Shown in pieces: positions 12,648 to 14,639 of a stretch of DNA of 42,839 nt. The notes beneath the pieces are model-generated. The model ran no database searches. It was not told the origin of the DNA and worked only from the letters and a program-made list of their open reading frames with translations. Origin of the DNA: Candidatus Desulfobulbus rimicarensis (lineage in GTDB: Bacteria > Desulfobacterota > Desulfobulbia > Desulfobulbales > Desulfobulbaceae); NCBI GenBank assembly GCA_008633435.1, contig RKSL01000048.1:12574-55412 (forward strand), written 5' to 3'. A program made the translations under genes and the position numbers. The number at the start of each line of letters is the position of its first letter. Position 1 is the first letter of the stretch.

Positions 12648-12809
12648 TCAGAACACAGACTTAAGCGCCACATATACACCAAGCCCCACACCTATGGAGC
12701 TGTACATAAGCAGTCAGGGAATGCAGTCGCTGCCATAGCGTTTTAAAATAACCGCAAAAGCGGTGATTCCACATCCAATGGCAATGCCGATAAAGAGCAA
12801 TTCTTTCAT
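12648..12809 (-). CDS. Candidate small membrane selenoprotein with in-frame UGA (CxxU motif)
   Basis: A 53-codon frame with TGA at codon 32 (12714-12716). It starts at ATG 12809 behind GGGAG (8-nt spacing), 27 nt after the typA stop. Residues 4-22 form a hydrophobic segment (LLFIGIAIGCGITAFAV...), then KRYGSDCIP, the UGA, and a second hydrophobic segment LLMYSSIGVGLGVYVALK ending SVF before a TGA stop. Reading UGA as selenocysteine makes a C-x-x-U redox-type motif at the membrane edge. UGA is followed by C, a weak stop context. A SECIS-like hairpin follows (separate entry). Coding character continues past the UGA: the frame stays open and hydrophobic. Alternatives are a 31-residue peptide, or a gene broken by a Cys-to-stop change. 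I do not recognise the family. Confidence 0.62.
12673..12708 (-). promoter_or_regulatory. Putative bacterial SECIS element
   Basis: Read on the minus strand, AGCUCCAU (12701-12694) pairs with GUGGGGCU (12689-12682). This gives 8 bp, two of them G-U, closing an AGGU tetraloop (12693-12690). Below it, UAUGUAC (12708-12702) continues pairing with the 3' flank, with two single bulges (U12681 and G12679). The loop begins 21 nt after the UGA. E. coli fdhF has its AGGU-containing loop about 18 nt after the UGA, so spacing and loop both fit what SelB recognises. The structure lies inside the coding frame, as bacterial SECIS elements do. Confidence 0.6.
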
Positions 12810-12836
12810 AACGAACACTCCCTGTAGTTTTCTGAA

Positions 12837-14639
12837 TCAGGCGCGTATTCTGGCGTCTTTACGCTTACGTAGCCTGATTATTTTAGGGGTTATTTCAACC
12901 AGTTCATCGTCTTCAATATAGGAAATACAATCTTCCAGGCTCATCTCAAGAGGGGGCGTTAAAATTACCGCTTCATCAGAGCCTGAGGCTCGCATATTGG
13001 TCAGTTTCTTCCCCTTGGCTGGATTCACCACCAGATCGGCCGGTCGACAATTCTCGCCAATAATCTGTCCCTTGTAGACATCCTCACCCGGCCCGATAAA
13101 CAAAGTGCCGCGATCCTGGAGGTTAAAAAGCGCATAGGCAACACTTGTGCAGTTTTCCTTGACAATCATTGCCCCGTTCTGACGCCCAGGCAACTCGCCT
13201 GCATGGGGCCCCCATTCAGCAAAGACATAGTTCATCACCCCCATACCACGCGTGTCTGTCATAAACTCGGAACGATACCCGAGCAGACCCCGGGTGGGCA
13301 CCTTGAACACCATGCGTGACATCTCGTTGGTCACCTGCATGTCCATGAGCACGCCTTTGAGCTTACCCAGCTTTTCAATAACCACCCCCTGGTATTGCTC
13401 ATCAACGTCAATGGTCAATTCCTCATAAGGCTCCACAGTTTTACCATTTTCCTCGCGCATGATAACGTGGGGACGGGTCACCTGAAATTCATATCCCTCC
13501 CGGCGCATCTTTTCAATCAGGATGGAAAGATGGAGTTCTCCGCGCCCGGAAACCTGAAATCCGACGGCATCGGTAAGAGCCTCCACCCGCAGTGCGACAT
13601 CTGCAAGAGTTTCCCGGCTGAGTCGTTCCTCAAGATGGCGAGAAGTTACAAATTTACCGTCAAGTCCGGCAAAGGGAGAGTCGTTGGGGATGAAATGCAT
13701 GGAAATTGTCGGCGGATCAATTTCAATCAAAGGAAGCGGCATGGGGTTGACCGGATCGGTAAAGGTCACGCCCACAGTGACATCTTCCATACCTGCAACG
13801 GCGATAATATCGCCCACCGAGGCCGAATCAACCGGCACCTGCTGATCGCCGTCAAAACCAAAAATTTTATTCACCCTGACTGGTTTTATAGAACCGTCAC
13901 GACGGGCTACAACCACATTTTCATTCAACCGAAGCGTACCGTTGACAACCCGGCCAATGCCAAGTCTACCCAGGTAGGGTGAATAATCAATGGTGTTAAT
14001 CTGCAATTGCAGCGGTGCTTCCGGGTCTCCGGAAGGTGGGGGCACATGGTTGACAATCATTTCGGAAATAAGCTCCATGCCTTGACCAGGCACCCGCTCG
14101 TCATCCGGGTCGATAACCATATACCCTTGCTTTGCAGAGCCATAAATTACTGGAAAGTCGAGGGTTTCATCCGGAGCCTCAAGACGACCGAGCAGATCAA
14201 ACACCTCGTCAACCACCCATTCACACCGGGCAGCTTCCTTGTCTATTTTATTAATAACCACCAGAATCGGCAGGTTGGCTGCAAGCGCTTTTTTGACCAC
14301 AAAAAAGGTCTGCGGCATCGGCCCTTCCTGGGCATCAACCAGTAAAACAGCACCATCGGCCATGCGTAGAACACGCTCAACCTGGCCACCAAAATCGGCA
14401 TGCCCAGGGGTGTCGATGATGTTTATTTTACAATCTTTATATTGATATGAGCCGTTTTTTGAGGCAATGGTGATACCCCGTTCACGCTCCAGATCCATGG
14501 AATCCATAAGCCGTTCAGCCACTTGCTGGTTTTCACGGAACATACCGCTCTGGTGAAACAGCTGATCCACCAATGTGGTTTTGCCGTGATCAACATGGGC
14601 AATGATTGCCACGTTTCTAATCTTGTTTCGATCCATCAT
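12837..14639 (-). CDS. typA: Ribosome-associated GTPase TypA/BipA
   Basis: A 600-residue translational GTPase. G1 is AHVDHGKTTLVD, the switch I region contains ERGITIASKN, G3 is DTPGHADFGG and G4 is NKIDK. They are followed by domain 2, the EF-G-like domains III and V, and the TypA-specific C-terminal domain (PAKGKKLTNMRASGSDEAVILTPP). BipA assists 50S assembly and growth under stress or low temperature. The start is the first of two adjacent ATGs with GGAG 2 nt upstream. The length is typical. It is the probable promoter-proximal gene for the small UGA-containing frame downstream. Confidence 0.97.
   Translation of the reverse strand: MMDRNKIRNVAIIAHVDHGKTTLVDQLFHQSGMFRENQQVAERLMDSMDLERERGITIASKNGSYQYKDCKINIIDTPGHADFGGQVERVLRMADGAVLLVDAQEGPMPQTFFVVKKALAANLPILVVINKIDKEAARCEWVVDEVFDLLGRLEAPDETLDFPVIYGSAKQGYMVIDPDDERVPGQGMELISEMIVNHVPPPSGDPEAPLQLQINTIDYSPYLGRLGIGRVVNGTLRLNENVVVARRDGSIKPVRVNKIFGFDGDQQVPVDSASVGDIIAVAGMEDVTVGVTFTDPVNPMPLPLIEIDPPTISMHFIPNDSPFAGLDGKFVTSRHLEERLSRETLADVALRVEALTDAVGFQVSGRGELHLSILIEKMRREGYEFQVTRPHVIMREENGKTVEPYEELTIDVDEQYQGVVIEKLGKLKGVLMDMQVTNEMSRMVFKVPTRGLLGYRSEFMTDTRGMGVMNYVFAEWGPHAGELPGRQNGAMIVKENCTSVAYALFNLQDRGTLFIGPGEDVYKGQIIGENCRPADLVVNPAKGKKLTNMRASGSDEAVILTPPLEMSLEDCISYIEDDELVEITPKIIRLRKRKDARIRA

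Follow-up and report, generated by a model that had tools for sequence, protein, structure and literature searches.

A probable 53-residue inner-membrane selenoprotein with a C-x-P-U motif encoded downstream of typA

The window, the whole 42,839-nucleotide stretch of DNA analysed here, carries on its minus strand a short gene that follows typA in the same direction, with 27 nt between the typA stop and the ATG of the small gene. Read from 12809 to 12648, the frame translates as MKELLFIGIAIGCGITAFAVILKRYGSDCIPULLMYSSIGVGLGVYVALKSVF and then reaches a stop. Codon 32 is an in-frame UGA with C as its next base, and the motif around it reads C-I-P-U. The initial annotation had described the 53-codon frame, its ribosome site, its distance from typA, the UGA, the motif and the following C, and each is present in the sequence. 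The small gene was left unannotated because of its internal UGA. The features of the locus, with the evidence for each, are as follows.

12837..14639, minus strand: typA, translational GTPase TypA/BipA, same-direction upstream neighbour (TIGR01394, 860.5 bits)
12818..12823, minus strand: ribosome-binding site AGGGAG, 8 nt 5' of the ATG (sequence reading)
12648..12809, minus strand: coding sequence of the probable small selenoprotein, 53 residues plus stop (TGA-containing homologues, pN/pS)
12735..12806, minus strand: predicted first transmembrane helix, residues 2-25 (AlphaFold2, mean pLDDT 70; mean hydropathy +2.5)
12654..12722, minus strand: predicted second transmembrane helix, residues 30-52 (AlphaFold2; Sec in the first turn; Tyr36, Gly40 and Gly42 conserved)
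12714..12716, minus strand: probable Sec UGA codon, residue 32, in the C-x-P-U motif (invariant TGA in 107/107 distinct extracted proteins)
12682..12701, minus strand: SECIS core, 8 bp stem (covariation, stability against synonymous-codon shuffles)
12690..12693, minus strand: apical loop AGGU (G within the first two loop positions; fit to the published bSECIS model)
about 12667..12711, minus strand: extended hairpin around the SECIS core (best rule-fitting fold, -16.7 kcal/mol)
12648..12650, minus strand: final stop TGA (sequence reading)

A protein search found homologues with a single in-frame TGA at the equivalent place in most of 96 related genomes. Profile searches detected the gene in 214 of the 258 genomes of the window's class, which we infer to be Desulfobulbia (212 in an earlier profile round), and in 137 of the 149 high-quality genomes of that class. 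Within the phylum a second order, probably Desulfovibrionales, gave a match in 57 of 247 genomes. In a phylum-wide sample of 395 genomes, matches outside the window's class came from one second-order genome only; the first search of this sample gave one further weak match, due to chance. Exactly one TGA is present in nearly all matches listed, which in the largest profile searches are the best ~150; one match has two, and a few short chance matches have none. Carriers include genomes assigned to Desulfolithobacter dissulfuricans GF1, two Desulfosediminicola species and Salidesulfovibrio onnuriiensis. The gene is present in three copies in genome G565 (contigs C1, C41 and C42), where each of the two copies examined lies no more than ~1 kb from a transposase-like ORF of ~730 residues; genomes G685 and G552 have three matches each.

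Selection on the frame was assessed in 227 gene pairs. The pN/pS ratio is 0.36 in the 25 codons 5' of the UGA and 0.31 in the 19 codons 3' of it, compared with 0.95 in the 20 codons beyond the final stop. Purifying selection persists after the UGA and is gone beyond the final stop; the frame therefore represents one protein ending at the second stop, in line with the earlier description of it as coding-like after the UGA. Two marks of a bacterial selenoprotein are found here, an in-frame UGA kept in homologues and coding conservation on either side of it. Across the 107 distinct extracted proteins Cys(-3), Sec(0), Tyr(+4) and Gly(+10) are invariant and Pro(-1) occurs in 100; the homologues do not end at codon 32, and they have no other residue there.

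These data bear on the simplest alternative, in which the UGA is an ordinary stop that releases a 31-residue peptide and the remainder is non-coding or an RNA element. UGA does terminate genes elsewhere in this genome, including typA itself, and the downstream RNA does contain a conserved hairpin. However, the pN/pS contrast across the second stop, the conservation of Tyr(+4), Gly(+8), Gly(+10) and a second hydrophobic helix past the UGA, and a codon 32 that is always TGA and never TAA or TAG among the extracted genes make this explanation highly improbable.

The hairpin lies in the coding region just after the UGA. Its AGGU loop starts at the 21st nt after the codon, giving a spacing of 20 nt. 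The bSECIS rule calls for a loop of 3-9 nt, a G in the first two loop positions, a spacing of 16-37 nt and an MFE of -7.5 or lower; with its AGGU loop, 20 nt spacing and -10.7 to -16.7 kcal/mol, the window gene passes this test as the initial annotation anticipated, though many codon shuffles pass too. The hairpin that had been placed at 12673-12708 is real, with the loop, position and rule fit proposed for it, but its boundaries give way to the extended fold at about 12667..12711; the whole 66-nt segment folds at -20.1 kcal/mol. Among family genes, 77/86 and 19/22 pass the rule, and 17 of the 86 fail a strict version of it. We rejected the rule as proof by itself, since it is too permissive: 56% of synonymous-codon shuffles satisfy it.

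Across 84 genes aligned without gaps, the core 8 bp stem is paired in 90.6% of cells, and pairing falls to 34-56% when the partner is slid by 1 to 3 columns. Changes on both sides of the stem occur in 63 cells, compared with 19.8 in shuffles, and the covariation score was reached by none of 500 shuffles (84 genes). For one stem pair, 40 genes have A-U and 28 have G-C; another appears as C-G, A-U, U-A or G-C. The hairpin region is also more stable than its synonymous-codon shuffles (mean z -1.84, and below the mean in 89% of 108 genes). Some members from the second order have a stem that is displaced by a single nt, with GGG as its loop. An Rfam search gave no match.

The stem leaves its mark on the protein. 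Codons Sec+7 and Sec+9 stand opposite each other in the SECIS stem, and these two positions show the strongest amino-acid coupling after Sec (z 16), in the combinations I/V, I/M, V/T and A/A. Of the 48 genes with isoleucine at +7, 36 use AUA, where local codon usage would predict 7.6; this AUA codon also supplies the A with which the AGGU loop begins. Compensatory changes in the SECIS are strong enough to couple the residues at +7 and +9 and to promote the use of AUA, a rare Ile codon. A TGA kept in hundreds of genomes, the pN/pS pattern and the covarying hairpin are together far beyond chance.

The source genome is equipped for Sec insertion. SelA (626 bits), SelB (377 bits), SelD (353 bits) and tRNA-Sec (73 bits) all score above their cut-offs, so that each of the four genes proposed for a search, selA, selB, selC and selD, was found. 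The SelD of this genome (G000:C206:10427-11365) is a selenoprotein too, with one in-frame TGA. Among the 258 genomes, 186 have both the small gene and tRNA-Sec, 26 the gene only, 26 the tRNA only and 20 neither (Fisher p 5e-6, uncorrected for relatedness). The 26 gene-bearing genomes without a tRNA-Sec hit come from a search with stricter filters; many of these genomes are incomplete and some are not. Five genomes of genus g10 (G013, G023, G031, G037 and G043) have neither the gene, nor tRNA-Sec, nor a SelB above the cut-off, and no Cys version replaces the missing gene in these five. Genus g10 belongs to the same taxonomic family as the source and seems to have lost the Sec trait, inside a class rich in selenoproteins.

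Near-cognate tRNA readthrough exists in bacteria, and the UGA could in principle be decoded as a normal amino acid such as Trp or Cys by suppression. Yet the genome holds the full set of Sec machinery genes, a covarying SECIS sits at the correct distance, TGG, TGC and TGT never take the place of TGA among the extracted genes, and the gene is missing from genus g10, which has apparently lost the Sec machinery. Decoding as anything other than Sec thus has very little probability. The initial annotation's reading of the frame as a selenoprotein is supported; what it had named as counting against that reading, namely absence of selB/selC, homologues that stop or carry a different residue at codon 32, or lack of conservation past the UGA, was not found.

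One expectation was not borne out. Homologues with Cys in place of Sec had been anticipated, and none was found in the genomes, the plasmid set or the pattern scan. No full-length Cys form occurs among the matches listed in the 258, 395 and 247 genomes, where the search profile scores Sec as Cys, so that Cys forms would score at least equally. A tblastn search of the plasmid set gave no match. An alignment-based scan of 84,980 species genomes back-translated Sec as Cys and was able to find Cys forms only; in the same number of genomes the pattern CxPCL[LM][MLI]Y[SG]S matched once, by chance. This lone match was rejected, as it runs antisense within a large Vibrio enzyme. The family appears to be Sec-only within the genomes, plasmids and pattern scan searched, and a divergent Cys homologue may exist elsewhere.

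Taken together, the small selenoprotein family consists of conserved two-helix membrane proteins with a C-x-P-U motif and occurs widely among sulfate-reducing bacteria. From its sequence, the window gene very probably encodes an inner-membrane selenoprotein of 53 residues, the founding member of this family, with Sec inserted by means of the SECIS. Translation would begin 27 nt past typA, the codon-32 UGA would be read as Sec through the SECIS 20 nt downstream and SelA/B/C/D, and the second stop would end the protein. This high confidence applies to identity and mode of Sec insertion and does not extend to a redox role.

The two hydrophobic segments noted earlier on either side of the motif correspond to the helices predicted by AlphaFold2 at residues 2-25 and 30-52, in a two-helix model of moderate confidence (pLDDT 70, pTM 0.37). 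Cys29-x-Pro-Sec32 lies at the start of helix 2 in this model, and Sec32, Tyr36 and Gly40, conserved in the alignment and spaced i, i+4, i+8, would share one face of the predicted helix. The inter-helix loop has a charge of +1.5, compared with -0.2 and +0.8 at the ends, and its basic residues weakly suggest that the motif faces the cytoplasm.

Genomic context varies between lineages. Of 61 loci, 38 (in two families of the class) have the gene directly after typA, and 17 (in other families of the class) have it directly upstream of mtnA, which encodes S-methyl-5-thioribose-1-phosphate isomerase. In one family of the second order the small gene comes after mtnA and der and before dnaX; der and dnaX were named by eye from sequence. 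The typA context that was first described thus holds for part of the family and is replaced elsewhere by mtnA or other genes. We considered typA as a family-wide functional partner and rejected it, because in other lineages the gene adjoins mtnA, der/dnaX or unrelated genes. With no constant partner, context does not reveal function.

Because of the Cys/Sec pair, a small membrane selenol/thiol redox relay is the leading idea and the most likely role, one to which we give roughly even credence. In this proposal a Cys-Sec bond in the predicted hairpin of two membrane helices would form and break at the membrane surface, and electrons would pass on to a membrane partner or oligomer.

Two other roles for the selenoprotein have to be weighed. 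The Cys/Sec pair might bind a metal or metalloid, in the manner of mercuric-transport or Sao-type proteins, without redox cycling. Soft metals could be bound by a CxPU motif where a membrane helix begins, and several membrane and transport selenoproteins have been proposed as metal ligands (PMC13188914). We regard this as possible but doubtful, as the protein matches neither MerT (PF02411) nor any transporter family, the two main neighbourhoods contain no adjoining metal-resistance genes, and the gene's almost universal occurrence across the class suggests a housekeeping role more than resistance. An accessory role in a larger membrane complex, as a subunit whose Sec tunes or protects that complex, would agree with the very small size of the protein and with its GxG and i, i+4, i+8 conserved face, both typical of helix packing; the family as a whole shows no linkage to any one large partner gene, however, and we consider this role unlikely.

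Returning to the redox relay, we tentatively propose that the family is obligately Sec-dependent, Cys being unable to replace Sec. It would be a core redox component of the membrane in Desulfobulbia, with members in Desulfovibrionales as well. Helix 2 might then answer to joint demands of protein and SECIS RNA, base-pairing dictating paired residue changes.

Published selenoprotein searches mostly demand a Cys homologue, and their authors describe Sec-only families as extremely rare or absent (PMC1914089, PMC12013277). A 2007 survey of stop codons describes families without a Cys homologue as scarce (PMC1914089), and deep-Sep may miss selenoproteins that lack Cys homologues, which all known ones seem to have (PMC12013277). 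Deep-Sep reports no new selenoprotein for Desulfolithobacter dissulfuricans GF1 or Salidesulfovibrio onnuriiensis (PMC12013277, Table 2), and its new families in two Desulfosediminicola species all have Cys homologues (PMC12013277). The present family occurs in the majority of genomes sampled from an entire class, yet is missing from the deep-Sep new families for these four genomes. This suggests a class of small, Sec-only selenoproteins filtered out by search design, and it offers a natural system for asking what Sec does that Cys cannot and how a coding-region SECIS shapes protein sequence.

The window protein has no match in profile searches of NCBIfam, Pfam and PDB, and family members give only scattered weak NCBIfam/Pfam matches. 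Within the open-access journal literature covered, the 2026 inventory of prokaryotic selenoproteins (119 families, Table 1; PMC13188914) contains nothing comparable. The new gene shares with those families an in-frame UGA, a downstream bSECIS, a CxxU redox-type motif and Sec machinery, but the 119 include no two-helix membrane protein of 53 residues with CxPU. Glycine reductase selenoprotein A (GrdA) has CxxU in common with it but is soluble and unrelated in sequence; GrdA was long believed to lack Cys homologues (PMC12013277, PMC1794560), which have meanwhile been found (PMC12013277). A thioredoxin-like selenoprotein was rejected, as a two-helix hairpin is predicted in place of a thioredoxin fold. 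The putative MerT-like mercuric transport selenoprotein also combines small size, a membrane location and a C/SxxU motif, but PF02411 gives no match here, and two helices are predicted instead of the three of MerT. DsbB/VKOR-type membrane thiol oxidases carry CxxC on a helix where it meets the membrane edge, the place at which this protein has CxxU, and a dithiol relay would be similar in the two; they show no sequence match to the new protein, which has half as many helices and a single Cys/Sec pair.
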